Assembly: GCF_007830445.1 (NCBI RefSeq)
Contig: NZ_VLKR01000006.1
Coordinates: 62,001-126,000, forward strand
From: Sphingobacterium siyangense
GTDB lineage: Bacteria > Bacteroidota > Bacteroidia > Sphingobacteriales > Sphingobacteriaceae
Length of the DNA stretch: 64,000 nucleotides
Reading direction: 5' to 3'
Below, in pieces: positions 6,320 through 64,000 of this stretch. Every line of letters starts with the position of its first letter. The first letter of the stretch is position 1. Below the pieces are notes generated by a model. The model was given only the letters and a program-made list of their open reading frames with translations, did no database searches and was not told where the DNA came from. The position numbers and the translations under genes are program-made.

Positions 6320-7018
6320 TTAAATCTCTTCCTCATCAACAAATTTATACCCCAGCCCCCGAACTGTTTGTAGATAATGTGGCTTATCTGGATTTGTTTC
6401 GATCTTTTTCCTTAAACGAACCACATGCATATCCAAAGTACGTGTGTTGACATTGGAGCTATAACCCCAGACAACCTCCATTAACTCCTCGCGTGTAATC
6501 TCCCGGCCTAAGTTTTGTAAAAAATGAAGCAAAATTCGGTTTTCCAAAATGGTCAACTCAACTTTCCTTCCGTCACGTATTAAGGAATGAATATTCGGAT
6601 GATGTTCCGTTTGCCCAAATTTATATACTTCGGGACTGTTCTTAGGTAAGAAAAATTTCACCTTATTATCGATCATAGCAATAAGCACATCCATATTGAA
6701 TGGCTTACTAATGTAATCAGTCACACCAAAGCTATAGGCTTCAATTTTGTCCACATCTTGAGACTTCGCTGTCATCATGATAATGATATTCTCAAACCCG
6801 GCTTTACGGACATCTTCACAGATTTCGTTGCCTTCTTTTCCTGGAAGCATCCAATCCAACAAAACCACATCGGGTCTCTTTTCCAAGATCAAACTTTCCG
6901 CTTCATTCCCATTTCCACTCTGAATGACCTGATAGCCTTCGGATTCCAATCGATGTTTTACCAAGAACCGTAAGTTCTCATCATCTTCAATAACAGCAAC
7001 AGTGATGTCTTTATTCAT
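6320..7018 (-). CDS. OmpR-family response regulator
   Basis: A 232-residue two-component regulator. The receiver domain (residues 1-120) has the acidic pocket EDDE, the phosphoacceptor Asp in VVLLDWMLPG and the Lys in DYISKPF. The C-terminal winged helix (about 135-228) shows LTILENRILLHFL, and RTLDMHVVRLRKKI with TVRGLGYKF. It is 16 bases downstream of the sensor kinase gene, so the two form a pair. The signal is unknown. Confidence 0.93.
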   Translation of the reverse strand: MNKDITVAVIEDDENLRFLVKHRLESEGYQVIQSGNGNEAESLILEKRPDVVLLDWMLPGKEGNEICEDVRKAGFENIIIMMTAKSQDVDKIEAYSFGVTDYISKPFNMDVLIAMIDNKVKFFLPKNSPEVYKFGQTEHHPNIHSLIRDGRKVELTILENRILLHFLQNLGREITREELMEVVWGYSSNVNTRTLDMHVVRLRKKIETNPDKPHYLQTVRGLGYKFVDEEEI

Positions 7019-7033
7019 ATTTAAATTTATTTT

Positions 7034-8692: not shown

Positions 8693-8704
8693 AATCTCCC
8701 GCCC

Positions 8705-50297: not shown

Positions 50298-50699
50298 CTA
50301 AGACAACTTAAAAAATTTTTTAATAAATTTCAGGCCAATGCTAACGTGGTTTTCTACAGTCTTCGGGGAGATGGACAATTTGACGGCAATTTCTTTATAA
50401 CTCAATTCTTCAATTTTATGAAGATAAAACACCTGTTGCCGCATAAAAGGCATTTGTGTAATCAGCTCTTTTACGTATTCTAACTCTCCTTTATAGGCAA
50501 TTTGTCGTTCAAGATCTTCATATTGGGTCAGTACAAATGGTTTCTCAAACGCTACATATTTTCTATTCAATGCACGCCGGCGCAATTCATCAATCAATTT
50601 TGTGCGCGCAATCTGGAAGAGCTGGGTACTGAATTGGATTTGCTGATTCGCATTATTTTTACGTTCCCAAACAATTAAAAAAGTCTGTTGGATATAGGG
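50298..50699 (-). pseudogene. FecI-type sigma factor, 5' part cut off by the prophage
   Basis: Reading leftward, the sigma-like sequence begins at YIQQTFLIVWERKNNANQQI, the end of region 2.2, and continues through region 2.4 to a full region 4 (MPFMRQQVFYLHKIEELSYK, then LSISPKTVENHVSIGLKFIK). The frame stays open to 50840, but the 45 or so residues before that point (MVDYGRLITLCFFRAMRGVC and on) are not sigma-like and lie in prophage DNA. Regions 2.1 and most of 2.2 are missing. They should lie beyond the prophage's far end, outside the window. An uninterrupted gene with a divergent start is possible but less likely. Confidence 0.78.
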
Positions 50700-50707
50700 G
50701 GTAAAAC

Positions 50708-50739
50708 AAAACGTTATTAAATCAAAAACGGCAAAAACG
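50708..50739. repeat. AAAACG direct repeats near the prophage left end
   Basis: AAAACG occurs at 50708-50713, 50725-50730 and 50734-50739, with a related AAACGG at about 50766. Mu-type transposases bind several short repeats at the phage ends, so these are candidate transposase sites. The unit is short and AT-rich, so chance is not excluded. Confidence 0.35.
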
Positions 50740-50768
50740 GTTAAAATCATTGTTAATGATATAACAAA

Positions 50769-50801
50769 CGGCGTTTTCCCACAAACGCCGCGCATAGCGC
50801 G
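50769..50801. repeat. Two adjoining hairpins
   Basis: CGGCGTTT (50769-50776) pairs with AAACGCCG (50783-50790). Directly after, CGCGC (50789-50793) pairs with GCGCG (50797-50801) around ATA. This GC-rich pair stands out in an AT-rich region just inside the prophage. It could be a terminator for phage transcripts or a protein site. Confidence 0.55.
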
Positions 50802-50824
50802 AAAAAAACAAAGTGTTATAAGCC

Positions 50825-50893
50825 TACCATAGTCTACCATTTTAATACCATTGTATTAAAAGTTTGATACCATAGTGATCCCATAAGTACCAT
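50825..50893. repeat. Five helically phased TACCAT repeats
   Basis: TACCAT occurs at 50825, 50835, 50846, 50868 and 50888. The spacings of 10, 11, 22 and 20 bases are near whole turns of the helix, so all sites face one side of the DNA. Flanks partly agree (three are followed by AGT or TGT). It is in the 426-base gap between the broken fecI gene and the repressor, the phage left-end region. Such phasing suggests cooperative binding of a regulator or of the transposase. Confidence 0.7.
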
Positions 50894-51053
50894 TCGTAAA
50901 TTAAAATGTCTTTAAACGGCCTGATACCCGATTAAATGTGATTTTTATTTGTAAAAGCTATGATATGCAACTGTAGGAACTGCTATTGTTTGATTGTTAT
51001 TTAAACATTAGAAAAAATGGCGTATTGTTATGTTTGTTTAAGTAAGATACTAG

Positions 51054-51077
51054 TTTAGATACATGTTTAGGTACATG
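51054..51077. repeat. Tandem 12-mer TTTAGRTACATG
   Basis: TTTAGATACATG (51054-51065) is followed directly by TTTAGGTACATG (51066-51077), one base apart in sequence. It is in the non-coding left-end region of the prophage. The rest of 50894-51265 is AT-rich and holds no other feature I can support. Confidence 0.6.
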
Positions 51078-51265
51078 AAAGCACTTGTTTTATTGACGTG
51101 AGTATGATAGTAGTTTTACATAAAAACGTGTGTTTTGCCTGTAAATTTAATTGAATTGACATGTGGTTTAGTAATGTCATCCTGTTGATTTTTTATAAAA
51201 CACTGATTATAAGTGGCTAAATGGATAATATTGATAGATTTTTGAATTGAGAATACATTTTGTTC

Positions 51266-51946
51266 TTATTCTAAGCTAATACAGCCAATAACCATAGCTA
51301 TGTTTTGTATATCACTTAACGGGACCTCAAAGTCGATATACTCCTTATTATCAGATCGACAAATAACATGATCAGGATTTTTACTTGGAAGAAGTCTCTT
51401 AATCATAGCTCCCTGGCTTTTACTATCAATTATATATACTTTATTCCATTGAATAAATAAAAGTTCTCTAACAAATCTACATGCTACGATATCGCCCGAT
51501 CTATACTTTGGGTACATAGAAGATCCACGAACGTACATTAAAAAATCAACTCCTTTGCCTTCAAACAATGGGATATTATAGCGCTCCTCAATCGCTTCAA
51601 AGTCTACTGCATAGCCATTATTAAGTGCTGCACCGGCAAAAGCTTCTACTGGAATTAATGGGAGACTATTGTCAGAAGCATGTGGTGTCATGCTCAAAAC
51701 TTTATTTTTTTCCTCTTGATGCAACATTTGTCCTTCCCCTGTTTTTATCCAAACTTTGTTTATATTTTGATCTAAGCCAATCAATTTATCTATAAACTTA
51801 TCTGATAATGGAACTTTACCATTAATTATTTGTGAAAAAGACGATTTAGTATAACCTAAAATATCAGAGAGTTCTTTGTCGTTATCTGCAACTTCATTAA
51901 AAATTAGCCATTTGCATACCTTTTTAACTCTACTTAGTTCAGTCAT
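51266..51946 (-). CDS. Phage repressor, LexA/CI type (HTH plus S24 peptidase)
   Basis: A 226-residue repressor. The N-terminal helix-turn-helix (about 22-60) reads DKELSDILGYTKSSFSQIIN. The C-terminal S24 domain has the nucleophile Ser in GSSMYPKYRSGDIV and the general-base Lys in QGAMIKRLL. An Ala-Gly bond in EAFAGAALN is a likely self-cleavage site, so DNA damage could induce the phage. It is divergent from the early genes, and the operator lies 29 bases upstream. Confidence 0.92.
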   Translation of the reverse strand: MTELSRVKKVCKWLIFNEVADNDKELSDILGYTKSSFSQIINGKVPLSDKFIDKLIGLDQNINKVWIKTGEGQMLHQEEKNKVLSMTPHASDNSLPLIPVEAFAGAALNNGYAVDFEAIEERYNIPLFEGKGVDFLMYVRGSSMYPKYRSGDIVACRFVRELLFIQWNKVYIIDSKSQGAMIKRLLPSKNPDHVICRSDNKEYIDFEVPLSDIQNIAMVIGCISLE

Positions 51947-51974
51947 TTTTAAATAGTTAAGAATAAAATAACTT

Positions 51975-52008
51975 TTGTTTCGATTTTTACTTGTTTAAAT
52001 CGAAACAA
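51975..52008. promoter_or_regulatory. Repressor operator, perfect 12-bp inverted repeat
   Basis: TTGTTTCGATTT (51975-51986) and AAATCGAAACAA (51997-52008) are perfect inverted copies with a 10-base spacer. The half-site centres are 22 bases, two turns, apart. It lies between the divergent repressor and early genes, as expected for an operator of a dimeric or tetrameric repressor. Confidence 0.8.
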
Positions 52009-52022
52009 TGTTTATATATTTG
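51991..52022 (+). promoter_or_regulatory. Early rightward promoter
   Basis: TTG at 51991-51993 and TATATTTG at 52015-52022 match the Bacteroidota -33 TTG and -7 TAnnTTTG elements with a 21-base spacer. The -33 element is in the operator spacer and the -7 element lies just beyond the right half-site, so repressor binding would block it. It would drive the Ner-position gene and the transposase. Confidence 0.65.
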
Positions 52023-52047
52023 TTCTACAATAAGAACAGTTTGAACA

Positions 52048-52254
52048 ATGAACAAAACTAGGAAAAATAAACACAACTACAATGATGCAGTCATCGAAGA
52101 GTTGAGGAGAAAATACGGGTTCCACAAGAACTATATCATCATGTCGGTGCGAGGTGACCGTGTCGGAACCTTTCCGACAAAAATAAAGGATGAATATCAT
52201 CAATTGGATCGCGCTTCCAAAGCAGCAATCCAAAAGAAAATAAGCGAATTGTAA
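52048..52254 (+). CDS. Small Ner-position DNA-binding-like protein
   Basis: A 68-residue basic protein (NYNDAVIEELRRKYGFHKNY, MSVRGDRVGTFPTKIKDEYH). It sits just after the early promoter and before the transposase, the place of Ner in Mu, which shuts off the repressor and early promoters. The pattern KYGFHKNYIIMSVRGDR could be a helix-turn-helix, with GDR as in many phage regulators. Assignment is by position and a weak motif only. Confidence 0.65.
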   Translation: MNKTRKNKHNYNDAVIEELRRKYGFHKNYIIMSVRGDRVGTFPTKIKDEYHQLDRASKAAIQKKISEL

Positions 52255-52343
52255 AACGGAAAGTTTGACAGCTATCAAGTTAGCAAAATTCCCGAAAGCG
52301 TAATCCGGTCATCGCCGCCGGGCGGGAACAGAAAAAAGTAAAG

Positions 52344-54338
52344 ATGATGCAAACGAAAACGTATCAATACCATAAAAATGAGCTGTGTATACCTGCTAGT
52401 CTTCTATATGAGGACTGGGAGTTAATGAGCTATAGAAAATACTTGTATCAATGCGAAACCAGAAAATTAGTCCGAGTTCGTGAAGGTAAAGGTAAGGGTA
52501 ATGAAGCTTTGGTAAGTTATCATGCTCTTCCAGAAGAATACAAAATGGCATGTAAAGAAAATTTAGGTGATTACAATGAGGTGGTGGTAGTCAATCTACT
52601 GGAGCCATACATTGTACCGGACACCAAAGCAATAGATTTCTTTGCAATGCATCGTTATCCAGATGGTAGAGAACTGGATGATAAAGCCAAAATAGAGCGT
52701 GCTACCAACTGCTGTATCTTAAATGCTATTAAAACTCTTTTAAAGGACCCTAAATATTCGAGCAGATCCATTAAAATGAGTAAAGCATGGGTGGAGATAT
52801 CCAAAGCCGTTAATTCGTTGAATGAAGGCAAAAAGGAAAAGCGATGGAGCTATAATTTACCCAAGCATCCATCCCGTTTACAGGCCAGATACAACAAATA
52901 TCAAAAAGAAGGTTATGCTTCTTTCATCCATGCAGGTGAGGGAAACGCAAATACGATCAAGATAAAGGGTGATGTAGCCGATTATATCATGGCCGTTTAT
53001 TGCCTGCCGAACAGGTACAGCATCCCTGAACTGCTAAACTTTTATCGGGGTGAAATGGATGCGAAAGGATGGCCCAGCCTAAGTGAGGCCGCAGTGAAAC
53101 TGTTTTTGAACAAGCCTGAAAACAAACGGATTTGGATAGAGCCGCGTCTGGGTAAAGATGCCTATGACAAGGAGTTCAAGCATACAATATCACGCAATCG
53201 GACCAGGTGGTTCCCAAATGTGTACTGGTCACTGGATGGTACCAAACTGGATCTGACATTTTTTGATCCTGACAGCTCGACAAAGATGAGCGCACATTTC
53301 CGTATTGACGTTGTATTTGACGTTTACAGCGAGACGATCATTGGCTGGAGCCTATCAGAGACAGAATCACATGTAGACCACTTCAAAGCGATAAAAATGG
53401 CCGTGCAGACTGCGGGATGCCGCCCGTACCTTCTAACCTATGATCAGCAATCCGGTCATAAAACAGCGAAGATGCAGGAACTCTATAGCAAAATCGTAGC
53501 AGATAGCGGTGGCACGCATTATCCGCACAGAGCCTACGGCCATGGAAATCCAGCGGATAAATTACACGGGATGTTACAGCAGGAAGTAACAACAAGACTG
53601 TACAATTCTGATGGTCAGGGTATAAAAACAAAAAGGGCGGATTCGCACGCCAATATGGACTATCTGGAGTCTATCAAGGAAAGCTTACCAACGAAAGATA
53701 AGGCACTCAGACAATGGGAAGCAATAGTACGTACATGGAATGAAGGTAAACATTCAACAAAACTTGTCAGCCGCAATACTCTTTACGCTGATCCGATGCC
53801 GATGAGCGAAGAGCTGAATTATGAAGATATCCTTAAATACATGTGGATTGAAGAGAGAAAACGCCCGATTACCTATCGTGCGCACGGCTTGGAGATCACG
53901 ATCGACAAAAAGGATTATCTATTTGAGGTGTATGATGATGAGGGAAACATAGATCTTGAATTCCGTCGCAAATATGTCGGTGCAAAATTCATTGTCCGTT
54001 ACGATCCTGACGGGCTTGACTCCTATATACAGTTGCTACAGACAAATCAACAGGGAGAGAAATTCCTTGTCGCCTATGCGCAGCCAAAACGTGAGTTTGA
54101 TCCGGTACCGGTGACCATGGCAGAGGGTGAAAAGGCTTTGTGGCAAAAAGATTTTGAAGTGCGGGACAAAGAGCATGAGCGCGATCAGAAAGCGTATGAA
54201 TCGCTCAAGAAACGTACAGGGATAACTCCAGAACGTATCGCCGCTGATCAGGAGCTCAATATTAAGATGCATGGCCGTTTGAATAAATCTATCAGCATAG
54301 ATACAGACCGAAAGAAGACATTATTAACTGAAATATAA
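52344..54338 (+). CDS. MuA-like DDE transposase
   Basis: A 664-residue transposase. An N-terminal DNA-binding half is followed by an rve-type core. The first catalytic Asp is in YWSLDGTKLDLTFF (residue 298) and the second in LTYDQQSG (residue 367). The third acidic residue would align at NPADKLHGMLQQE: Asp405 stands where MuA has its Glu (PVERAF), while Glu414 is nine residues on. A C-terminal domain and a basic tail follow. It inserts and replicates the phage genome together with the MuB-like ATPase. Confidence 0.93.
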   Translation: MMQTKTYQYHKNELCIPASLLYEDWELMSYRKYLYQCETRKLVRVREGKGKGNEALVSYHALPEEYKMACKENLGDYNEVVVVNLLEPYIVPDTKAIDFFAMHRYPDGRELDDKAKIERATNCCILNAIKTLLKDPKYSSRSIKMSKAWVEISKAVNSLNEGKKEKRWSYNLPKHPSRLQARYNKYQKEGYASFIHAGEGNANTIKIKGDVADYIMAVYCLPNRYSIPELLNFYRGEMDAKGWPSLSEAAVKLFLNKPENKRIWIEPRLGKDAYDKEFKHTISRNRTRWFPNVYWSLDGTKLDLTFFDPDSSTKMSAHFRIDVVFDVYSETIIGWSLSETESHVDHFKAIKMAVQTAGCRPYLLTYDQQSGHKTAKMQELYSKIVADSGGTHYPHRAYGHGNPADKLHGMLQQEVTTRLYNSDGQGIKTKRADSHANMDYLESIKESLPTKDKALRQWEAIVRTWNEGKHSTKLVSRNTLYADPMPMSEELNYEDILKYMWIEERKRPITYRAHGLEITIDKKDYLFEVYDDEGNIDLEFRRKYVGAKFIVRYDPDGLDSYIQLLQTNQQGEKFLVAYAQPKREFDPVPVTMAEGEKALWQKDFEVRDKEHERDQKAYESLKKRTGITPERIAADQELNIKMHGRLNKSISIDTDRKKTLLTEI

Positions 54339-54346
54339 ATTTAGCT

Positions 54347-55222
54347 ATGACAAACGAATATAAAACATCCATCGCAACGGAGCTCTTCCGTTTAGCAGGA
54401 TCTGGAAAGTCAAAAACAGACAAGTATAAATATTCACAGGTGGAACTTTCCGCACGTCTGGGGATCAGTAACGCGACGGTAAGCAAAATGATATCTGGAC
54501 AATGGAATAATATTTCTGACGCCATGTGGCGCAAAGTACAGGCGACATTAAAGCTTGATATGGACTGGAATACCGGAGCAACGACCAACTACACCAACCT
54601 GATGGAACTATTGAAGGCAGCCCAAGAGCGGCATCTGACTTTAGGTATCAGCTTCAATGCCGGTGTGGGCAAGTCACATGCCTATGTAGATTACGAACGC
54701 TATAACAGAAATGTGATCCATATTGAGTGTGCCAATTTCTGGCGGACAAGATCATATATATCAAATCTGCTCAAAGCTTGTGGTATTGTCCCATCTGGAA
54801 CCATGGAGGAAATGATCGAATGCTTTATTGATCATGTCATGGGGCTGGAAGATCCTATTATTATCATCGATCAGATGGATAAGCTTAAGGAGGGACCTTT
54901 TGACCTTTTCATGGACATGTATAACTACCTTTTCAGATGCTGCTCTTTTGTGGTCTCCGGTGTACCGGCACTTAAGAAACGTATCCTTAGAGGTGCCAAA
55001 AATGACAAGATCGGATATCGTGAGGTACTGTCCAGGCTTCACGGAAATTTTCTGCAACTGAATATACCTGATCATAGCGATGTGGAAGCGGTATGCAAGG
55101 CGAACGGTTTGGATGATGAAGATGAGATAGCACGTATCTATAATCTTAGTGAGGGGGATTTGCGGGTAGTACGTAAAGAGGTAGCCAAATATTTTCTATT
55201 GAACGGTAAGGAGGTCGCGTAA
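54347..55222 (+). CDS. MuB-like transposition ATPase
   Basis: A 291-residue AAA+ protein with an N-terminal helix-turn-helix (YSQVELSARLGISNATVSKM). Walker A is FNAGVGKSHA and Walker B is PIIIIDQMDKL. MuB binds target DNA, stimulates MuA and gives target immunity. It starts 8 bases after the transposase stop and abuts the next ATPase gene. Confidence 0.92.
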   Translation: MTNEYKTSIATELFRLAGSGKSKTDKYKYSQVELSARLGISNATVSKMISGQWNNISDAMWRKVQATLKLDMDWNTGATTNYTNLMELLKAAQERHLTLGISFNAGVGKSHAYVDYERYNRNVIHIECANFWRTRSYISNLLKACGIVPSGTMEEMIECFIDHVMGLEDPIIIIDQMDKLKEGPFDLFMDMYNYLFRCCSFVVSGVPALKKRILRGAKNDKIGYREVLSRLHGNFLQLNIPDHSDVEAVCKANGLDDEDEIARIYNLSEGDLRVVRKEVAKYFLLNGKEVA

Positions 55223-55864
55223 ATGTCACAGGATATCAAGTTAGCACCGTTGTTCAGCTATGCTGATATCGAGAAAATCAAGTACAAGACGGTAAAGCTG
55301 GAGGGTGATTGGGCAAAACTCCTTGGTGAGGAGATTGAGCTCGCAGGGGTATGGATCATCTGGGGAGAATCAGCCAATGGTAAAACAAAACTTGTACTGG
55401 AGATGGCAAAGTATCTCTCTGGATTTGAGCCGGTGTATTTCAATTCCCTGGAGGAAAAAAAGAAAATGACTTTCCGCCGGGCGTTAAGACTGGCAAATGT
55501 CGGAGCTGTAGGAAACCGGATCCAGTTCCAGAGCGAATCCTTTGAACACATGAAATACCGTTTGCGTAGGGAGCGTAGCAGAAAAGTCGTTTTTATTGAC
55601 AGTCTTCAATATCTGCGCATTACCAAAGCGCAATATTTTGAACTCATTGAAGCGTTTCCCGACAAGTTATTTGTCTTTACCTGCCACGCACAGGGTTTAT
55701 GGCCAAAGGGTGACCTTGCCGACGATGTAAGGTATGATGCGGATGTGAAATTGCGTGTACGTCACTTTGTGGCCACTCCGGTGGAAGCCACACGGTATGG
55801 AGGAAGTGAACCAATGGTGATCTGGGAGGAAGGGATGCGAAAAGCACAAATGAAACTAACATAA
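55223..55864 (+). CDS. RecA-fold/AAA P-loop ATPase
   Basis: A 213-residue ATPase. Walker A is WGESANGKTKLVLEMAKYL and Walker B is KVVFIDSLQYLRI. AQGLWPKGDLADDVRYDADV may be the sensor or DNA-facing loop. The RecA-like fold (single short domain) suggests a helicase loader or recombination ATPase. It starts directly after the MuB-like stop, so it is co-translated. Mu itself has no obvious counterpart. The exact role is unknown. Confidence 0.75.
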   Translation: MSQDIKLAPLFSYADIEKIKYKTVKLEGDWAKLLGEEIELAGVWIIWGESANGKTKLVLEMAKYLSGFEPVYFNSLEEKKKMTFRRALRLANVGAVGNRIQFQSESFEHMKYRLRRERSRKVVFIDSLQYLRITKAQYFELIEAFPDKLFVFTCHAQGLWPKGDLADDVRYDADVKLRVRHFVATPVEATRYGGSEPMVIWEEGMRKAQMKLT

Positions 55865-55877
55865 AATTTTTGAATAG

Positions 55878-56042
55878 ATGAAAAGACTGATTTACCTCTG
55901 CATGCTTCTGTCAGCACTGACATCGTGCAAAAAAGACGACGATTTACCTGTACCTCAAAAGGAGGAACTACCAAAGAAATGTGCGGGATGCTCTAAAGTT
56001 GACCGTGCCAAATTGATAACAGATACGATTAATCGGAAATAA
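55878..56042 (+). CDS. Small phage lipoprotein
   Basis: A 54-residue protein from ATG 55878. LIYLCMLLSALTSC is a lipoprotein signal with Cys17; the mature 38 residues are charged (KKDDDLPVPQKEELPK) and hold a CAGC pair. It sits between the ATPase and a hypothetical gene in the same frame of early transcription. Small phage lipoproteins can exclude other phages or act as Rz1-type spanins; neither is shown here. Too short for routine gene calls, but the signal and spacing make it credible. Confidence 0.7.
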   Translation: MKRLIYLCMLLSALTSCKKDDDLPVPQKEELPKKCAGCSKVDRAKLITDTINRK

Positions 56043-56043
56043 G

Positions 56044-56517
56044 ATGAAAACATTAACAGAAAATCACAAAGGTGTTAAACGTGTCAGTCTTATAGAGCAG
56101 ACAAGGATACTTAACAGCTCCCAGATCAATGAAATATGCGATATCCTCGAATGGACCGAGATACAATACTGTGAGCATCAATTTGAACAGTATGAGCAGT
56201 TCTTGAAACGAGTCTTACACGGAAACGATGAAAGCTTTTTAAGTAAGGTCAGGCACGCTCCGCTCATGCGAGGCCTTTGGAACAATGAGTGGATCCAGCG
56301 GAACGAGGAATTTATATTGATTGCCAGATATCAGCTTTTTTCAGGGAAGGAAGTAGATCCATCGGGTGAAATTATTACTGTACCACCTCCCGACCACGCA
56401 ACCTTTGCAAAGGTATACGATGATTACCATACGCTACATAACGGCAATCTACTGGCCGTAAACCATGAATTTATCGTCAGGTTTGAACATGTACTGGATT
56501 TAATCTTCAAGCTATGA
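56044..56517 (+). CDS. Phage early protein, unknown function
   Basis: A 157-residue acidic protein, without signal peptide or membrane segment. ILNSSQINEICDILEWTEIQ begins a helical stretch. No family recognised. It starts one base after the lipoprotein gene stop and overlaps the next gene by 4 bases, so it belongs to the early operon. Confidence 0.7.
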   Translation: MKTLTENHKGVKRVSLIEQTRILNSSQINEICDILEWTEIQYCEHQFEQYEQFLKRVLHGNDESFLSKVRHAPLMRGLWNNEWIQRNEEFILIARYQLFSGKEVDPSGEIITVPPPDHATFAKVYDDYHTLHNGNLLAVNHEFIVRFEHVLDLIFKL

Positions 56518-56825
56518 AAATCAAGTTTAAAATCAGCGATAACCAACTTCGGGTTTGGATAGCGTGCCTTGAATTATGCTGGATGGAACCCAAACGGGAT
56601 AGTCCGGCCATTGTAAGAATGGCCTATCATGGACTCTCCAACCTGTTCCACAAACTTAGATCAGAGGCACTGATCCAAAAATCTGAATACAGATTTAGTC
56701 TGGACAGTATGGAAGCCCTGGCGTTTGTTGCCCACATGCAGGGATATACAAACTATCTGGTCAATCCAACAGATGCTGCCATCATAAATGGAATAATAGG
56801 AATAATAGATCATAAAACAACTTAA
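56514..56825 (+). CDS. Phage early protein, unknown function
   Basis: A 103-residue protein, starting with the basic strand KIKFKISDNQLRVWIACLEL and helical after that. No known domain. Overlaps the previous gene (ATGA-type) and is 2 bases from the next. Confidence 0.65.
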   Translation: MKIKFKISDNQLRVWIACLELCWMEPKRDSPAIVRMAYHGLSNLFHKLRSEALIQKSEYRFSLDSMEALAFVAHMQGYTNYLVNPTDAAIINGIIGIIDHKTT

Positions 56826-56827
56826 AA

Positions 56828-57346
56828 ATGGACAAAACAAAAAAAGAATCAATGGAGAATTTGAAAGAAGTATTTACTTCAATGGACAATTCAATAAGTA
56901 GACTCGTATTGGCAGAAGACGGTGAACAAGCACTGATCGGATTGGTGACCAAGGATCCAATTGCATTTGCAGCAATGCTGTCGATACAGATGAAAGAAAA
57001 CCGAGGCCTTGCCGAAATCATTACCATGGCTTATGATGCATACAAATTTCCTCATACTGAAAGAGAGACCGAATCATCCGATTATATCGATCAGATTGAC
57101 AGCTTGTATCGTACAATGCCCAGAGATGCAGTAGCATTCTCCATTGTCAGCCACGGGGGCCACACGGTAGCTCATCTTAATGGATCAGTTATCAAAGTCT
57201 CTGCAAAACTATGCGAATTTCAGGAGCATAACCCCAAAGCTATAAAAATATTGAACATCGCCGTTGAAGGTTTTAAAATGGCCGAAAAGACAGGGTTTTT
57301 GGATGAATTAAAGACTAAAGGAAAGGATGCAGGTAATGTCAACTAA
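56828..57346 (+). CDS. Phage early protein, unknown function
   Basis: A 172-residue soluble protein. Acidic helices (ENLKEVFTSMDNSISRLVLA) precede a centre with DYIDQIDSLYRTMPRDAVAF and a Gly- and His-rich VSHGGHTVAHLNGS. No family recognised. It overlaps the membrane gene that follows by up to 20 bases. Confidence 0.68.
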   Translation: MDKTKKESMENLKEVFTSMDNSISRLVLAEDGEQALIGLVTKDPIAFAAMLSIQMKENRGLAEIITMAYDAYKFPHTERETESSDYIDQIDSLYRTMPRDAVAFSIVSHGGHTVAHLNGSVIKVSAKLCEFQEHNPKAIKILNIAVEGFKMAEKTGFLDELKTKGKDAGNVN

Positions 57347-57545
57347 CAATAATTCAAATGGCGGTTCAATAGGCTTGTCGGGTTTACTGGCCATAGTGTT
57401 CATCGTATTGAAGCTGATCGGTAAGATCGATTGGTCTTGGTGGTGGGTACTGGCACCGATATGGTTTCCAGGAGCAATGTTAATAATTGGTTTTTTAATT
57501 TATTGTATCGTTCGTGAAATCCGAATCAAAAAATTAAGAAGATGA
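57327..57545 (+). CDS. Small phage membrane protein
   Basis: A 72-residue protein (ATG 57327; ATG 57336 is an alternative). Two hydrophobic segments, GLSGLLAIVFIVLKLIG and VLAPIWFPGAMLIIGFLIYC, flank a Trp-rich turn, and the tail is basic. It could be a holin-like or inner-membrane early protein, but position in the early region speaks against lysis. Overlaps the DUF3164 gene by 4 bases. Confidence 0.68.
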   Translation: MQVMSTNNNSNGGSIGLSGLLAIVFIVLKLIGKIDWSWWWVLAPIWFPGAMLIIGFLIYCIVREIRIKKLRR

Positions 57546-58192
57546 CAGATATTTCAAAACTTTCAGCAGAGCAGCGCAAGGAGCTGATGGCTGAACTAGC
57601 TAAAGAGGCTAAGGCAGAGAAAGTAAAACGGGCAAAAGAAAAAAGGAAGTATGAAGCTAAGAAAGATGTTTCGATCGAGGAGCTGATGGATGAGGCTCGA
57701 GAGTTATCCCTTGCAAATGCACGTTTCAAAGCTAAAATGCATATCGTCATGGAAAACCACCAAGATTCCTTAAATAATTATGGCGGAATCCGGTCAAATA
57801 GTCGAGGGGGATTTACGTTAAATCATTCCCGAAATGATCTTCGTATCACCAGGCGCCGAGATACCGATCCATCATGGGACGAGCGAGCTAACAAGGCTGT
57901 AGAACTTATCAAAGAGTTCTTGTTATCTGAAGGTATAAAAAAAACAGCGGGGCGCGTGCATGGCATCTTAATGGATTATATAGCACGAAATGATGATGGT
58001 GACCTAGAGTATGCAAAAGTGATGAAGCTTTTACAACATGAGGATACCTTCCAGGATCCCCGTTGGGTAAAAGGTCTTGAACTGATCAAGGAAGCCTACA
58101 GTATCACCTTTAAGAAATTCGGTTATGAGTTCAAGGAGAAAAATGCAGCTGGTAAATGGGTTCGTTTAGAGATGAATTTTAGTAGTCTTTAG
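57542..58192 (+). CDS. DUF3164-like Mu-type phage protein
   Basis: A 216-residue protein. The N-terminal third is a charged helix (LSAEQRKELMAELAKEAKAE). From about residue 75 it follows the DUF3164 pattern: the loop YGGIRSNSRGGFTLNHSRND, then RITRRRDTDPSWDERANKAV and VMKLLQHEDTFQDPRWVKGL. DUF3164 proteins are found in early regions of Mu-like phages; their function is unknown. A family recognition from sequence pattern. Confidence 0.75.
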   Translation: MTDISKLSAEQRKELMAELAKEAKAEKVKRAKEKRKYEAKKDVSIEELMDEARELSLANARFKAKMHIVMENHQDSLNNYGGIRSNSRGGFTLNHSRNDLRITRRRDTDPSWDERANKAVELIKEFLLSEGIKKTAGRVHGILMDYIARNDDGDLEYAKVMKLLQHEDTFQDPRWVKGLELIKEAYSITFKKFGYEFKEKNAAGKWVRLEMNFSSL

Positions 58193-58193
58193 T

Positions 58194-58421
58194 ATGAAAA
58201 GGATCTATTTCGAGGATAACGGTCAGGATTTCCTCTGGTGGGAAATAAATGAGTTAGGTATCGTGGTTGACTGTAGCCCCTTCCAAAGCGCCGTTTGGAC
58301 TGGAAGTGAAGTTATAGCACCCGATTTTATTAAAGTAGGCGATCAGTTAGAATTTATAAGCAAGTATCGCGACGGGTTAAGAACACTTATTCATAAAGTA
58401 GAAAAAATAGTATCAAAATGA
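58194..58421 (+). CDS. Small phage protein, unknown function
   Basis: A 75-residue protein, beta-rich by eye (RIYFEDNGQDFLWWEINELG, DFIKVGDQLEFISKYRDGLR). It resembles the gene at 58657 in ending with a short strand pattern (KVEKIVS versus LKIEKEE), so the two may be distant relatives. One base after DUF3164. Confidence 0.62.
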   Translation: MKRIYFEDNGQDFLWWEINELGIVVDCSPFQSAVWTGSEVIAPDFIKVGDQLEFISKYRDGLRTLIHKVEKIVSK

Positions 58422-58660
58422 GCATATACAGCGATATATCAAATAGAATCGGATGGGACAAGGACACTAAGGTGTCCATCCCATCCATTGACGAGGCTAA
58501 AGAGCTTCACAATGATGTCATGGTAAATAAATCCATTGAAGCATACGAAAGCATTTTCCGTTATCATCGCTTTGCGCCACAGCCAGATGGAGGTGACGAT
58601 GAGATCGCGATGCGATACATCCATGATGCCTTTTTGGAAGGAAGGAGTTTTTTTCAATGA
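58418..58660 (+). CDS. Small phage protein, unknown function
   Basis: An 80-residue protein with no known domain (SIDEAKELHNDVMVNKSIEA). It overlaps both neighbours by 4 bases, the sign of a tightly packed early operon. Confidence 0.6.
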   Translation: MSIYSDISNRIGWDKDTKVSIPSIDEAKELHNDVMVNKSIEAYESIFRYHRFAPQPDGGDDEIAMRYIHDAFLEGRSFFQ

Positions 58661-58986
58661 GAGAGGAACTTTCAAACTGCATTCTGGTCATTGTGTTTTG
58701 CCTGGTCTGCATTGGTACAATTTATTACGTGCAAAAAAAACAACCGAAACAAAAAATGTTCAAGATAGAATTTGAAAAAAGCAAAGACGAATATGTTACC
58801 GTATGGGTTGGTGTAGATGGCCTGATAAAAAAGGCTGACAAGGATCCTGCCTACTGGTATGATCGCGTCGTGATAAACCCACATCTGTTGCAAATAGGTA
58901 GCCAGATGAAAGTCTATGGCTTATATACTGACGCAATAGAGCGAGAGTCCTATTTCGTATTGAAAATCGAAAAGGAGGAAATATAA
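58657..58986 (+). CDS. Small membrane-anchored phage protein
   Basis: A 109-residue protein with an N-terminal membrane segment (NCILVIVFCLVCIGTIYYV), then a soluble part of strands (FKIEFEKSKDEYVTVWVGVD, INPHLLQIGSQMKVYGLYTD). The soluble part echoes the protein at 58194. Function unknown. Confidence 0.65.
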   Translation: MREELSNCILVIVFCLVCIGTIYYVQKKQPKQKMFKIEFEKSKDEYVTVWVGVDGLIKKADKDPAYWYDRVVINPHLLQIGSQMKVYGLYTDAIERESYFVLKIEKEEI

Positions 58987-59201
58987 TGCAGTTGTACTTC
59001 ACAGAGGATGAGATGGCCGAGTTCCTCCTTGCTCGGGGATATGTGATTATGATGGCTGTGGAGGAACTGGAAGTCAATACTTATCAAAATGTCTTCCTAC
59101 AGGAGCAAAAAGAAGTTATCAAGGCTTTTAAAGGCAACTACTCCGATGATCTGCAAGAGGCTTTTAAAAGAGAATTAAAAACGAAAATCTTAACACAATA
59201 A
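58986..59201 (+). CDS. Small phage protein, unknown function
   Basis: A 71-residue acidic protein (MQLYFTEDEMAEFLLARGYV) whose first half may be a small helical DNA- or protein-binding unit. It ends 2 bases before the first DGR target gene, so it may be co-translated with it. Confidence 0.6.
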   Translation: MQLYFTEDEMAEFLLARGYVIMMAVEELEVNTYQNVFLQEQKEVIKAFKGNYSDDLQEAFKRELKTKILTQ

Positions 59202-59203
59202 AA

Positions 59204-59557
59204 ATGGATTACAAACAAATCAACACATTCGAGAAAGCACTCGAATTCAAAGGCGAAACATTGGAACAGTTCAATGAGCGTACAAAAGGAATGGATATCG
59301 ACACCATTGGCTATGAGAAGGTGAAAGCGATCGTATTCGCCCTAAACGGCGGTAAACATGTTAAACGTGGGTATTATCCTTGGTTTTACAATCCCACTGG
59401 TTCGTCCTCCTCGTTTTCGTACGACGATTCCGCTTACGACTACGACTTCGCGGGTGTCGGTGCCCGCCAGCTTTTGAAAACAAGTGAGCTGGCTAGATAT
59501 GCCGGAAGGACATTCCCATTGGAGTACAGTCAGTACATTAACAATACAAACGATTAA
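59204..59557 (+). CDS. DGR target protein 1
   Basis: A 117-residue soluble protein. The constant N-terminal part (FEKALEFKGETLEQFNERTK, IVFALNGGKHVKRGYYPWFY) leads into the variable region. VR1 codes residues 65-88; residues 73-84 (YDDSAYDYDFAG) are where template adenines allow change, followed by VGAR. The last 29 residues (ELARYAGRTFPLEYSQYINN) are constant. No signal peptide, no lectin-type tail. It is a paralogue of target 2. Likely binds some partner through the variable surface; the partner is unknown. Small size and early position are unusual for DGR targets. Confidence 0.85.
   Translation: MDYKQINTFEKALEFKGETLEQFNERTKGMDIDTIGYEKVKAIVFALNGGKHVKRGYYPWFYNPTGSSSSFSYDDSAYDYDFAGVGARQLLKTSELARYAGRTFPLEYSQYINNTND
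59396..59467 (+). repeat. DGR variable repeat VR1
   Basis: 72 bases aligned without gaps to the template repeat at 60054-60125. It differs at 11 positions, and every one is A in the template (A to G, C or T). The first 24 bases are identical to both TR and VR2. The last 12 bases GTCGGTGCCCGC are the same in VR1 and VR2 but differ from TR at two adenines. Confidence 0.93.
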
Positions 59558-59559
59558 TC

Positions 59560-60030
59560 ATGGAAAATCTAACAATCACGAAAGAAAACGCTATCAAAGC
59601 TTTTGACGGGGCTAACGATAAAGGTAAAAACCTTCTTAAAAATCTATTTGGCGAAAAGGTATTTGTCAAAAATATCATGGATCGCATCAAGACAGTGGAA
59701 GATGCACTGGTGTATAATGGTAAAACAGTAGCACAGTTTAACTGGGAGACCGAAAGGGATTCGGATGCACAAAAGGCGGATAAAGAGATAGAAGAGATTG
59801 CAATGGCTCTCCGTGAAGGTAAAACACTTGAAATGGGGCAAAAATGGTACTATCCATATTTTTATAAGCCCACTGGTTCGTCCTCCTCGTTTTCGGGCAA
59901 CGGTTACCTTTACGCCGACGACTGCGCGTCTGTCGGTGCCCGCCGTTCTGTAGATACGCCGGAAAAGGCTATATACATGGGTAAACAGTTCGCTGCTATT
60001 TATACCAGGAGTTTAGCCCCAAGCAGATAA
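59560..60030 (+). CDS. DGR target protein 2
   Basis: A 156-residue soluble protein, related to target 1 over its last 115 or so residues (VEDALVYNGKTVAQFNWETE aligns with FEKALEFKGETLEQFNERTK). It has an N-terminal extension of about 40 residues (ENAIKAFDGANDKGKNLLKN). VR2 codes residues 105-128, with changes in GNGYLYADDCAS and then VGAR. The C-terminal end (KAIYMGKQFAAIYTRSL) is constant. Starts 2 bases after the target 1 stop. Partner unknown. Confidence 0.85.
   Translation: MENLTITKENAIKAFDGANDKGKNLLKNLFGEKVFVKNIMDRIKTVEDALVYNGKTVAQFNWETERDSDAQKADKEIEEIAMALREGKTLEMGQKWYYPYFYKPTGSSSSFSGNGYLYADDCASVGARRSVDTPEKAIYMGKQFAAIYTRSLAPSR
59872..59943 (+). repeat. DGR variable repeat VR2
   Basis: 72 bases aligned without gaps to the template repeat. 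It has 13 differences: 12 at template adenines and one T to G. Similarity to TR goes on for about 12 more bases (to 59955), where five further adenines differ and one G to T is seen. Confidence 0.92.
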
Positions 60031-60053
60031 AAATTAAACAGGTCGTGTGCTGT

Positions 60054-60125
60054 ACTGGTTCGTCCTCCTCGTTTTCGTACAACGATTACAATTACGACAA
60101 CGACAACGCGAATGTCAGTGCCCAC
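60054..60125 (+). repeat. DGR template repeat TR
   Basis: A non-coding copy of the variable repeats between target 2 and the reverse transcriptase. Its middle is a run of adenine-bearing codons in the target frame: TAC, AAC, GAT, TAC, AAT, TAC, GAC, AAC, GAC, AAC, GCG, AAT, with 16 adenines. None of these codons can become a stop by changing A. The last 12 bases read GTCAGTGCCCAC, the probable IMH* counterpart of the VR end. Confidence 0.93.
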
Positions 60126-60244
60126 AATGCTAAAAATGATAATAACAGCACAGGCCTTACCCAAAAGGTAAAAAAATACTTATTCCTTGCAGGGCGTTGG
60201 TAGCTCAACCGGGCGAAGACGACCTTTTAAGCAAAGGCGCAACA
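60126..60244 (+). other. TR to RT spacer of the DGR
   Basis: This 119-base stretch follows the template. DGR RNAs need the sequence between TR and RT for priming and RT/Avd binding, so it is probably functional RNA. It contains GTTGGTAGCTCAAC, which can form a small hairpin, and CCTTGC at 60185-60190 can pair imperfectly with GCAAAGG near 60233. Its part 60194-60240 recalls the 5' half of a tRNA but does not close into a cloverleaf. Confidence 0.5.
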
Positions 60245-61198
60245 ATGAAAAGATTAGGCAACATATACGACCAATTATGCAGCATAGACAACCTTCTCCT
60301 TGCGGATAGCATCGCAAGGAAAGGAAAGTCTAAGCAAACAGGAATCATCGAATTTGATAAAAATTACGATCAGAATATCGCCGATATATATCGCGAGTTA
60401 GCAACAAATACTTACCAGACGTCCCCATATCGACACCGGACAATCTACGAACGAAAAGAACGTGAGATATCTATTTTACCTTATCGCGACCGTGTCGTGC
60501 AGCATGCTATTATGAATATCCTTGAACCGATGTTTGTGTCTGTTTTTACACGCGACACCTATAGCTGTATCAAAGGTCGTGGTGTGCATTTGGCTAGCAA
60601 AGTGCTACAGAAGTATATGAGCGATACTGAGGGTACGATGTACTGTCTAAAGTTAGATATTAAGAAATTTTATCCCAACGTCGATAATGGGATCCTAAAG
60701 TCCATGCTACGGAAAAAGATCAAGGACAGGGAAATGCTTCAGCTACTGGATGGGATCGTCGACAGTGCCCCTGGTCTTCCGATCGGTAATTACTTAAGCC
60801 AATATCTGTCCAACTTTTATCTGTCGTATTTTGATCACTGGATCAAAGAAGAGTGCAAGGTCAAGTATTATCTGCGCTATGCGGACGATATCGTCATCCT
60901 GCACCAGGATAAAAATTATCTACAAGGATTGTTTGACAGGATCCAACGATACCTATATGATAACCTCAAGCTTTCATTGAAGCCGAACCGCGGTCCATTT
61001 CCAACAAGTACAGGCATTGACTTTGGAGGCTATGTACACTATCCCACACATGTATTAATGCGAAAAACCATCAAGCAGGCTTTTGCCCGTGCGATAAAGG
61101 CGAACAAACCCAAGGAGAGTATCGCCAGTTATCTTGGCTGGGCAAAACACTGCAATTCCAAAAATTTAATCAAAAAACTCATACATGAAAAACTTTAG
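60245..61198 (+). CDS. DGR-type reverse transcriptase
   Basis: A 317-residue reverse transcriptase from ATG 60245; a TTG start at 60197 would add 16 residues with no RT homology. Motifs: ILPYRDRVVQHAIMNILEPM (motif 2 area), CLKLDIKKFYPNVDN (catalytic Asp), GLPIGNYLSQYLSNFYL (the DGR-type IGxxxSQ motif), YYLRYADDIVIL (YADD active site), IDFGGYVHYPTHVLMRK, and a C-terminal SYLGWAKHCNS. It copies TR RNA into cDNA with adenine errors, which replaces VR in the targets. Its stop overlaps the next gene by 14 bases. Confidence 0.95.
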   Translation: MKRLGNIYDQLCSIDNLLLADSIARKGKSKQTGIIEFDKNYDQNIADIYRELATNTYQTSPYRHRTIYERKEREISILPYRDRVVQHAIMNILEPMFVSVFTRDTYSCIKGRGVHLASKVLQKYMSDTEGTMYCLKLDIKKFYPNVDNGILKSMLRKKIKDREMLQLLDGIVDSAPGLPIGNYLSQYLSNFYLSYFDHWIKEECKVKYYLRYADDIVILHQDKNYLQGLFDRIQRYLYDNLKLSLKPNRGPFPTSTGIDFGGYVHYPTHVLMRKTIKQAFARAIKANKPKESIASYLGWAKHCNSKNLIKKLIHEKL

Positions 61199-61487
61199 TG
61201 ATTTGAATATTCAGATAGATCAGTTCAATGGAAAGAAAATAGAGATCGATGAGGTTGTCGGTCATACCATCGAGGTGCTGGACTTTAAGATCGAACCCTC
61301 CAAGTACCAGGACAAAGGTAACAGCAAGTGCCTGGTCTTACAGATCCGATATGACAACAGGGACAGGGTGATCTTTACCGGCTCCGTGATCCTCCAGCAG
61401 CAATGCCAAAAAGTTAGGGAGATGAACGGCTTTCCATTTAGAGCGACAATTGAAGCAATCAAACCACGCGGTTACAAGTTCATTTAA
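61185..61487 (+). CDS. Small RT-coupled protein, possible ssDNA-binding OB-like fold
   Basis: A 100-residue protein starting inside the end of the RT gene, so coupled to it. It looks beta-rich (KIEIDEVVGHTIEVLDFKIE, LVLQIRYDNRDRVIFTGSVI) and ends ATIEAIKPRGYKFI. VFTGS...LQQQ followed by PFRATI recalls small single-strand-binding proteins of phages, from memory. No Avd-like four-helix gene is seen in this DGR, so this may stand in for an accessory factor. Confidence 0.62.
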   Translation: MKNFSDLNIQIDQFNGKKIEIDEVVGHTIEVLDFKIEPSKYQDKGNSKCLVLQIRYDNRDRVIFTGSVILQQQCQKVREMNGFPFRATIEAIKPRGYKFI

Positions 61488-61514
61488 ATTAATAACAACT
61501 TAAATAATACGATT

Positions 61515-62561
61515 ATGTTAAATTTTATCGATAGCAAAATTAAAGCTGTTTCCGTCCATAGAGTCGGTAACAAAGCACAGGACGAATTTTATATATTGTC
61601 CGATCAATCCCTTGACCTTGATGAAGAAACAGAAGCCTATTTAATGCGGTTTTTTATTGATCCTTTCCATAAGGAGCCGCGCGTTTATAGATTGTCCGAT
61701 ATCAACAGTTCATTGGATCTGAATGAAGTTTATTATTACGCTTGTCGGATTTTTGACGGTAGGTATGAATTTTTGGAAGCCTCTAAGATTTTGGCACAAC
61801 GATTATATGAGGTTTCCAATCATCCAAAAATCAAGGCTGGAGAATTTTATACAGTTAAATTTAACAATGTACTTTTTGAAGGTGAAGAAAGGGAAGCACT
61901 CGCTCTTTTCAAAGTAGATGATAACAAAGAGAGTTACCTAGATGCAAATCCAGAAAATGGCACATATAAGCTGAAAATTGTGAATGGCGTCGGTGTAGGG
62001 GATATTGACAAGGCTGTCATCATTTTAAATTGTGAAGCCGACAACGGATATAAGGTAATTCTAGCAGAGAATACCAAATCTTTTGACGATAGCTTTTGGC
62101 GGGACGAATTCCTTCAGGTGAAATTGCGCAACGATTCCAATTTCCAGACCGAGGCAACGATCAGAATTTTTAAAACTTTTGTTGACGGATTGGATGAAGT
62201 CTTTGAGGTTGAAAAAATGGACAAGATCGATCTGCTCAATAAAGCACAGGCATATTTTAAAAATAATGAGACGTTTTCTCAAGAAGAATTTGAAGAATCG
62301 GTCATTGGATCAGAACAAGCTATCGAGTTATTTAGAATATCCAAAGCGAATACTGAAGACCTACTGGATGCGAAGATTCCAGATGAATTCCCACTTTCCA
62401 ATGCTATAATCAAAAAAAGCAAGGCAGGTTTTAAAAATATGATCAAGCTTGATAAAAATTTCCAGATCAGCGTGCATGGAAAACGTGAGCTGATCGAGAG
62501 AGGCTTTGATGAGGAAAAGGGTATGAATTACTACAAGGTGTATTTTGAAAATGAATCATAG
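61515..62561 (+). CDS. NA37/YejK-family nucleoid-associated protein
   Basis: A 348-residue protein of the 37-kDa nucleoid-associated family. Supporting stretches: ISKIVVH-like start (IKAVSVHRVGNKAQDEFYIL), SNHPKIKAGEFYTVKFNNVL, GVGDIDKAVIILNCEADNGY, and KNMIKLDKNFQISVHGKREL near the end. Bacterial members bind DNA and condense the nucleoid; phage-borne copies could act on host or phage DNA. It follows the DGR genes by 27 bases. Confidence 0.85.
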   Translation: MLNFIDSKIKAVSVHRVGNKAQDEFYILSDQSLDLDEETEAYLMRFFIDPFHKEPRVYRLSDINSSLDLNEVYYYACRIFDGRYEFLEASKILAQRLYEVSNHPKIKAGEFYTVKFNNVLFEGEEREALALFKVDDNKESYLDANPENGTYKLKIVNGVGVGDIDKAVIILNCEADNGYKVILAENTKSFDDSFWRDEFLQVKLRNDSNFQTEATIRIFKTFVDGLDEVFEVEKMDKIDLLNKAQAYFKNNETFSQEEFEESVIGSEQAIELFRISKANTEDLLDAKIPDEFPLSNAIIKKSKAGFKNMIKLDKNFQISVHGKRELIERGFDEEKGMNYYKVYFENES

Positions 62562-62964
62562 GGATTACCGTAGGTTTTACGCCATGTGCAAGGCACTGGA
62601 TAAAACAAAAGAAGAGGCCGTCTGTGAATTTACAGACGGCCGAACCGAAAGCTGCAGGGAACTTTCCGATGAGGAATTCGACCAGCTTTTTGCAAAAATT
62701 GTAACACTGCAGACAGCCGTTCAAAAAATCCCGGATGACTGGGAGCCTGCTCCTGGAGATGCGATGCGAAAAAAGATGTTCAGCATAGCCCGGGAAATGT
62801 ACTTCCATAAATCAAATACTGAACTGAAAACAATCATTGACGATTTTTGCATAAAGCAAAAAAAGAAGCCATTGAACAGATTGGATGTGATCGAGCTCGG
62901 TCAGGTTCTTTCGATATTCGAAAAAAAAGTTAAACCGGATCATCTTAACGCATTGAAACGATGA
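62545..62964 (+). CDS. Mu-like phage protein in the GemA position
   Basis: A 139-residue protein (alternative Met3 start at 62551). YRRFYAMCKALDKTKEEAVC and FTDGRTESCRELSDEEFDQL fit a conserved gene of Bacteroidota Mu-like phages in the position of Mu gemA (gp16, DUF1018). The C-terminal part (REMYFHKSNTELKTIIDDFC) is helical. Overlaps the NA37 gene by up to 17 bases. Assignment by position and pattern only. Confidence 0.6.
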   Translation: MKMNHRDYRRFYAMCKALDKTKEEAVCEFTDGRTESCRELSDEEFDQLFAKIVTLQTAVQKIPDDWEPAPGDAMRKKMFSIAREMYFHKSNTELKTIIDDFCIKQKKKPLNRLDVIELGQVLSIFEKKVKPDHLNALKR

Positions 62965-63551
62965 AACAGGTGTATAAATTAACGTCCAAAAAGTTAGAAG
63001 GCTGTCTGTACGTCACCTTTGACCAGGGCTATTTAACAGCTATTGAAATAGCTATTAAAAGTCCTTTAAACGATGGACAGTTTAGAGGTTTAATGATCAA
63101 TATCCCATATGCTGAGGAACAGATCGCCAGCAAAAGTAACCAGATCGGACTAACCTGTGAGAAGATTGTTGAAATGGCCACAAATAGAAAAGTGGCTATG
63201 TTCTGCCTGATGTACGAAAAATGCAATAGGATCAAATACAAAGCCTCGCGACAGGATGGCGGAAAGATCTCCAGTATAAAAATTACTGAAGAGATTTTAA
63301 AGCATTACTTTGAAAGCGAAAATTTCCTGTTCAAGGGCAAACATTCGATATCCAACCTAGTGCGTTACTATAATGAACTATTGCTGGAGATATCTAAAAA
63401 AGGTACCGTGGGTTTTCCAAACAGTTGGTCAAAGGATTATGCGGACAAATTGAGTCCAGCAGATCTATCAGAATATTGGAAACACCTCCGGGGCTTAGGG
63501 CTCAAGCCGAAAAAAGATAGGCTTGGAAATACAACAGATTGGATTAAATAA
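62961..63551 (+). CDS. Phage early/middle protein, unknown function
   Basis: A 196-residue soluble protein. First half strand-rich (VYKLTSKKLEGCLYVTFDQG), second half helical with many Lys (SKDYADKLSPADLSEYWKHL). In this place Mu carries mor, the middle-gene activator, but no helix-turn-helix is seen. ATGA overlap with the previous gene. No family recognised. Confidence 0.62.
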   Translation: MKQVYKLTSKKLEGCLYVTFDQGYLTAIEIAIKSPLNDGQFRGLMINIPYAEEQIASKSNQIGLTCEKIVEMATNRKVAMFCLMYEKCNRIKYKASRQDGGKISSIKITEEILKHYFESENFLFKGKHSISNLVRYYNELLLEISKKGTVGFPNSWSKDYADKLSPADLSEYWKHLRGLGLKPKKDRLGNTTDWIK

Positions 63552-63593
63552 CAGAAGAAAAATTTTATATTTGGGCTTAAATCTATTAAATCC

Positions 63594-64000
63594 ATGAAAA
63601 GAATACTATTTGCTTTATTTATACTTTTCAGTTCCTGGAGCATAGTGGTCGCCCAAACTGAACCAGATATATCAAAGTATAACTTTTTTCCAAAAGAGGA
63701 GGCCCTGGAGTTCGCCAAACAATGCGCGGCATTATCGAAAACAAAATGGGTATTCTTAAAAGATAAGGAAATAACAAACCCTGATTATTATGTGGTAACG
63801 TTTGTTAATTCCTTGGATGAGACCGAAACCATGAAATTTAATTTTATCAAAAGATACCTAAACTCCAATGAGGACCTGGAGATTAAAGGGGATCCTAGTT
63901 ATAGGTTTCAAGATGTATACGGTAAATATTTGGATTTATTTCCTATTTGGGAGCGATTTTTTAAACCAGGTGTTCCACTCGAAGCAACTATTGAAGAGCC
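63594..64000 (+). CDS. Secreted phage-borne protein, 3' end outside window
   Basis: At least 135 residues from ATG 63594, cut by the window end. MKRILFALFILFSSWSIVVAQ is a clear signal peptide; the mature part (TEPDISKYNFFPKEEALEFA, YYVVTFVNSLDETETMKFNF) has no known domain. An exported protein of this kind in a prophage may be a lysogenic conversion gene. A host-like gene in phage DNA is likely; base usage does not differ visibly. Confidence 0.7.
   Translation, partial: MKRILFALFILFSSWSIVVAQTEPDISKYNFFPKEEALEFAKQCAALSKTKWVFLKDKEITNPDYYVVTFVNSLDETETMKFNFIKRYLNSNEDLEIKGDPSYRFQDVYGKYLDLFPIWERFFKPGVPLEATIEE

Follow-up and report, generated by a model that had tools for sequence, protein, structure and literature searches.

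Phage diversity-generating retroelements (DGRs) are usually regarded as host-range switches. A locus of Sphingobacterium siyangense, in which one template repeat (TR) is accompanied by variable repeats (VRs) in two small adjoining genes of a Mu-like prophage, raises the question of what such an element diversifies and where its products act. We analysed this locus within a stretch of 64,000 nucleotides (NZ_VLKR01000006.1, contig positions 62,001-126,000), referred to below as the window. The element is, with virtual certainty, a bona fide DGR, and its fullest explanation, namely a working DGR whose targets T1 and T2 are early, intracellular, variable binders, is in our estimate a probable one.

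The cassette and its prophage

The features on which the analysis relies are, in window coordinates:

50696-64000, no strand assigned: left portion of a Mu-like prophage of ~36.2 kb that interrupts an ECF sigma-factor gene (rejoined flanks, late genes)
51266-51946, minus: CI/S24-type repressor (Pfam Peptidase_S24, 2.7e-9)
52344-54338, plus: MuA-like transposase (phrog_310 transposase, 7.9e-53; rve and Mu-transpos_C weak, below the cut-off)
54347-55222, plus: MuB-like AAA ATPase (phrog_296 DNA transposition protein, 8.7e-36)
57542-58192, plus: DUF3164 early protein (Pfam DUF3164, 3e-11)
59199-61488, plus: whole cassette as a recombining module (86% identical to relative L084 over exactly this stretch)
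59204-59557, plus: target gene T1, 117 aa, phrog_11581 family (ORF call, PHROG)
59396-59469, plus: VR1, within T1 (74-nt register)
59560-60030, plus: target gene T2, 156 aa, a T1 paralogue (ORF call, PHROG)
59872-59945, plus: VR2, within T2 (74-nt register)
60041-60241, plus: template RNA (alignment of ten sequences, compensatory changes)
60054-60127, plus: TR, non-coding (74-nt register; identical in L084)
60153-60245, plus: RT-17 RNA (RF03020)-like spacer (Rfam, 29 bits, below the gathering score of 40.4)
60242-61198, plus: DGR reverse transcriptase (RT), 318 aa from the ATG, with an in-frame TTG at 60197 (PHROG and PDB matches, RT tree)
61185-61487, plus: OB-fold-like accessory gene, 100 aa, overlapping the 3' end of the RT gene (conservation behind the RT, AlphaFold2, structure matches)

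The prophage runs beyond the window to about contig position 148,927. One piece of the interrupted sigma-factor gene lies at 50298-50695 and the other at ~148.9 kb on the contig, and rejoining the prophage flanks restores ...LAEDVVHIQQTFLIVWERK in frame. The MuA-like, MuB-like and DUF3164 genes lie upstream of the cassette, and downstream of it follow reversed terminase, portal and minor head genes, as well as sheath, tape measure and baseplate genes (late genes read in L173/L174). These neighbours and the interrupted host gene bear out the assignment to a Mu-like prophage made in a preliminary description of this DNA, and from gene order the cassette appears to sit in the early operon.

The same description had placed two VRs in adjoining genes, a TR and an RT on one strand, and all of them were found on the plus strand at those positions. 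In the 74-nt register, 12 differences separate VR1 from the TR, each at a TR adenine (12/12), and 15 separate VR2 from it, of which 14 are at TR adenines, the sole exception being the change of TR T60078 to G. The earlier counts, 11/11 and 12/13, had shown the same bias over repeats whose ends were set slightly short. Computed over a 77-nt stretch extending slightly beyond the repeats, the probability of such an adenine enrichment by chance is 2.4e-6 for VR1 and 1.3e-8 for VR2. Differences between VR and TR restricted in this manner to template adenines are a defining feature of DGRs. Near the 3' end of VR1, the IMH-like bases 59459 and 59466 are fixed differences with respect to the TR. A search of the host genome revealed neither a third VR nor a second DGR RT elsewhere.

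The RT carries the motifs YADD and IGNYLSQ (GxxxSQ type) and matches phrog_1423 (reverse transcriptase) at 1.8e-119. In the PDB search its nearest solved relative was the 8ub7 chain (E 1.3e-48), labelled there simply 'Reverse transcriptase', which we take to be the BPP-1 DGR RT; a group II intron RT scored 1.9e-18. The GxxxSQ motif and the 8ub7 match confirm the DGR type proposed from sequence, and the RT groups with DGR RTs and not with retrons or group II introns. In the RT tree, RTs of loci with small targets cluster together (3 changes versus 17 in shuffles); Hankyphage, BPP-1-like and ANMV-1 RTs stand on long branches, and their placement was not used.

Relatives and parts of the cassette

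RT-based scans yielded 159 loci from Bacteroidota, Ignavibacteriota, a few other genomes and viral contigs, in which adenine-biased repeat pairs were sought without supervision. Such pairs are present in most loci and at nearly constant spacing: the VR of the near target lies ~189 nt (173-257) from the TR, that of the far target ~592 nt (550-663) from it. When 164 small-target VRs from 94 loci were pooled, 1,638 of 2,618 adenine sites were changed, compared with 14 of the 5,090 non-adenine sites. Two or more small-target VRs are present in 61 loci, the paired targets being paralogues (median identity within a locus, 42%), and the standard order is target, target, TR with structured RNA, RT, and a protein of ~100 aa that is OB-fold-like. 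The preliminary description had rightly set the two small targets apart from the classic tail-fibre case, and had understated the matter: this layout is the rule in a large RT lineage of Bacteroidota phages.

The closest comparison is provided by L084, whose TR is identical to that of the window over 74 nt in a cassette that is overall only 86% identical. The VR1 sequences of the two differ at 4 sites, 4/4 being TR adenines, and the VR2 sequences at 13, of which 12 are TR adenines. The check put forward earlier, comparing VR changes in related genomes with the adenines of the TR, thus finds the differences between relatives on TR adenines. With the RT grouping described above, neither of the outcomes named there as refuting a DGR was observed. 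Homology between the two loci spans 59199-61488 and ends at both edges, the flanking DNA being unrelated. Because homology is confined to this stretch, the five parts travel as one module.

Moreover, the TR adenines at +3 and +10 of the V-G-A/S-R motif differ in every VR (150/150 and 137/137), which matches the pattern expected for IMH in the VR and IMH* in the TR. As these adenines are never kept in VRs, the motif retains its Gly and Arg when the VR is overwritten.

A structured RNA surrounds and follows the TR. One stem closes around the TR (60041-60052/60146-60156), followed by a hairpin (60158-60161/60167-60170) and a further stem (60192-60198/60218-60225). In an alignment of ten relatives 98.3% of the cells were paired, a value equalled by 0/500 shuffles and compared with 36-43% in slid controls, and compensatory changes occurred in 14 cells versus 3.6 in shuffles. 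Such a structured RNA adjoining the TR is a further feature by which DGRs are recognised. The spacer between TR and RT matches the Rfam family RT-17 (RF03020), whose name gives no DGR role; L004, L020 and L123 pass its gathering score at the same cassette position, and a limited literature search found no link between RT-17 and DGRs.

The fifth part is the accessory gene. The preliminary description had taken 59396-61198 as a complete DGR; the DGR itself stands, and the functional unit extends to 61487, both this gene and the structured RNA having gone unnoticed. A relative of it occurs in 137 of the 159 loci, nearly always directly behind the RT, and is found at 125 of 128 small-target loci, against 4 of 20 loci with large targets. 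The AlphaFold2 model (pLDDT 93; order b-b-b-a-b-b) retrieves mostly OB folds, weakly (Z 4-6.3), among them RuvBL2 DII, LEF-3, HIN, Teb1, SsbA and PRD1 P12. In the archaeal virus ANMV-1 a similar segment (34%) is a separate gene after the RT. No match to Avd (PF05635) was found among the early ORFs scanned, and the OB-fold-like gene sits in its stead; its product may replace Avd, or handle cDNA or RNA.

Several relatives deviate in copy number. Genome G051 harbours three separate cassettes (L194, L195, L196; RTs 91, 73 and 71% identical), each with its own target pair and at least two of the three in Mu-like prophages. The Mu-like locus L161 has apparently two TR/VR pairs with a single RT, at 6670-7202 and 8351-9881, the one serving a small target and the other a target of 451 aa. 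In L048, L050, L092 and L140 extra VRs lie 3-7 kb from the cassette, so that a single TR can also reach a third or fourth target at a distance.

Possible role of the targets

T1 contains no Pfam domain in a Pfam scan and no signal peptide that could be seen by eye. Pfam, PDB and structure searches returned no usable match for T1 or T2, and their BFVD matches were uncharacterised phage proteins only. The AlphaFold2 model of T2 consists of helices, with a coil of low confidence where the VR lies, and has no structural match in the PDB. A new, non-lectin scaffold was considered on the basis of this model and dropped, since the VR is precisely its low-confidence part; that reading is weakened further by phage BI-TP1, where the same TR serves an Mtd-like, lectin-type gene as well as a T2 homologue, a sharing which argues for a lectin-like VR in T2. 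Two Sphingobacterium-type genomes encode a fused double-target protein without an RT (L190:5494-6363, 289 aa; L191:5111-6010, 299 aa), which in L190 lies next to genes for a non-specific endonuclease and a Na/H exchanger, as though it had been domesticated. A search of plasmids found no relative of the target of family member L144.

With respect to the setting of the targets, in 40 relatives the cassette is preceded by early Mu genes and followed by reversed head genes, and at 74 of the 128 small-target loci neither was detected in the stretch examined. Relatives that lack Mu genes have genes for repressors, integrases, primases, RecT, exonucleases, helicases and DNA methyltransferases as neighbours, and T1/T2 homologues in Bacteroides phages lie in the DNA-metabolism region. 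Because their relatives lie near replication and methylation genes, T1 and T2 are probably not virion proteins; that they are early, non-virion proteins is the view towards which we lean.

Taken together, these results suggest a model in which the TR would be transcribed inside the structured RNA and the RT would copy that RNA with adenine errors, probably aided by the OB-fold-like protein encoded at 61185-61487 instead of Avd. The resulting cDNA would then overwrite both VRs as far as a fixed 3' boundary, where the conserved Gly and Arg of V-G-A/S-R are encoded, such that a surface segment of ~17 residues would be varied independently in T1 and T2. The TR/VR relationship, the adenine bias, the boundary, the DGR RT, the RNA stems, the accessory gene and the spread as a module are evident from the sequence; we infer that the DGR is active at present and that the OB-fold-like protein assists it. 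T1 and T2 would be made with the early genes, would stay in the cell and would act there as variable binders. The proteins bound would most likely belong to host defence or to competitor phages, and this counter-defence or inter-phage role, suggested by gene position only, we propose tentatively. With similar reserve, one may picture an entire Bacteroidota phage lineage whose DGRs serve not tail tropism but the diversification of pairs of small intracellular early proteins. Directed against host defence or rival phages, such variation would be a counterpart, on the phage side, to that of antibodies, and the DGR behind it would work with an RT-17 template RNA and with an OB-fold accessory protein instead of Avd.

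Alternatively, the cassette could be a conventional tropism-switching DGR, T1 and T2 being small components of the virion, in the baseplate or at the fibre tips, that attach to the host surface although their genes lie outside the tail module. The majority of phage DGR targets are indeed tail proteins (PMC8144416), Hankyphage, likewise Mu-like, mutates its own tail fibre (PMC12135933), and a small target such as the T2 homologue of BI-TP1, fed by the same TR as a tail gene, could be a virion decoration. However, T1 and T2 lie in the early operon, are small and have neither trimerisation nor fibre domains; within the same RT clade, loci whose targets are large (430-480 aa) form separate branches, and some of these loci adjoin tail genes; and fixed, RT-less fused copies reside in chromosomes beside housekeeping-type genes. 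We therefore regard tropism switching as unlikely.

A decaying DGR, in which the VRs are a record of past mutagenesis and the cassette is now inactive, is improbable to a far greater degree. The one non-adenine difference in VR2 would agree with it, but every ORF is intact, compensatory changes preserve the RNA structure, and L084 combines an identical TR with VRs that differ, almost exclusively at TR adenines, in a cassette of 86% identity. Finally, that the RT belongs to a retron, a group II intron or another RT defence system and that the repeats are coincidental deserves hardly any credence: the PHROG label reads just 'reverse transcriptase' and RTs of group II intron and retron type matched more weakly, but 8ub7 leads by 30 orders of magnitude, the GxxxSQ motif is present and most relatives carry adenine-only repeats, and together these results refute it.

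If the preferred reading of T1 and T2 as intracellular variable binders is true, targets beside replication and methylation genes would mean that phages also hypermutate intracellular proteins, as one earlier paper suggested for a single phage group. The locus further provides a compact, defined cassette of 2.3 kb, including a candidate substitute for Avd, and it ties the hitherto unassigned Rfam RT-17 RNA to DGRs; the RT-17 link and the Avd replacement are both directly testable.

Comparison with known systems

The literature searched contained no description of a compact cassette with paired small targets, an OB-fold-like gene and a structured RNA, nor of the extent of its lineage. Bordetella phage BPP-1 shares with the window a TR and VR, adenine mutagenesis, an IMH-type boundary and an RT homologous to 8ub7, but has a single target, the tail protein Mtd with its C-type lectin fold, and Avd. 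The Mu-like phage with a DGR from Bacteroides mentioned in the preliminary description is Hankyphage, whose target is a tail fibre (PMC12135933). Hankyphage p00 is likewise a transposable phage with a DGR, and a segment (L179 4501-4785) that lies within or immediately after its RT gene resembles the OB-fold-like protein (32%); it differs in having one large tail-fibre target and Avd (PMC12135933), and its RT is only 35% identical.

DGRs with two targets are already known (PMC10743442; PMC6642488). Those of phages with tentaclins (PMC10743442) resemble the window in that one TR serves two target genes, but the tentaclin DGR targets are functionally different receptor-binding proteins, whereas T1 and T2, with 117 and 156 aa, are paralogues.

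The idea of a phage DGR acting on a non-structural target is not new: for the DGRs of Quimbyviridae, Benler 2021 (PMC8008677) reported a second target that is non-structural and lies within a defence-related island. In BI-TP1 the T2 homologue is gp84, located amid methyltransferases and far from the tail module, with VR differences at TR adenines in 14 of 14 cases. From its matching gene neighbourhood gp84 is presumably the ORF meant in that study, and the second Quimbyviridae target most likely belongs to the same family as T1 and T2. DGRs of this Quimbyviridae/LoVEphage type thus share with the window a T2 homologue with a VR in a DNA-metabolism/methyltransferase region; they differ in that their RT lies at a distance and their TR rewrites a tail gene in addition, whereas in the window both targets are small sisters joined to TR, RT and OB-fold-like gene in a Mu-like early operon.
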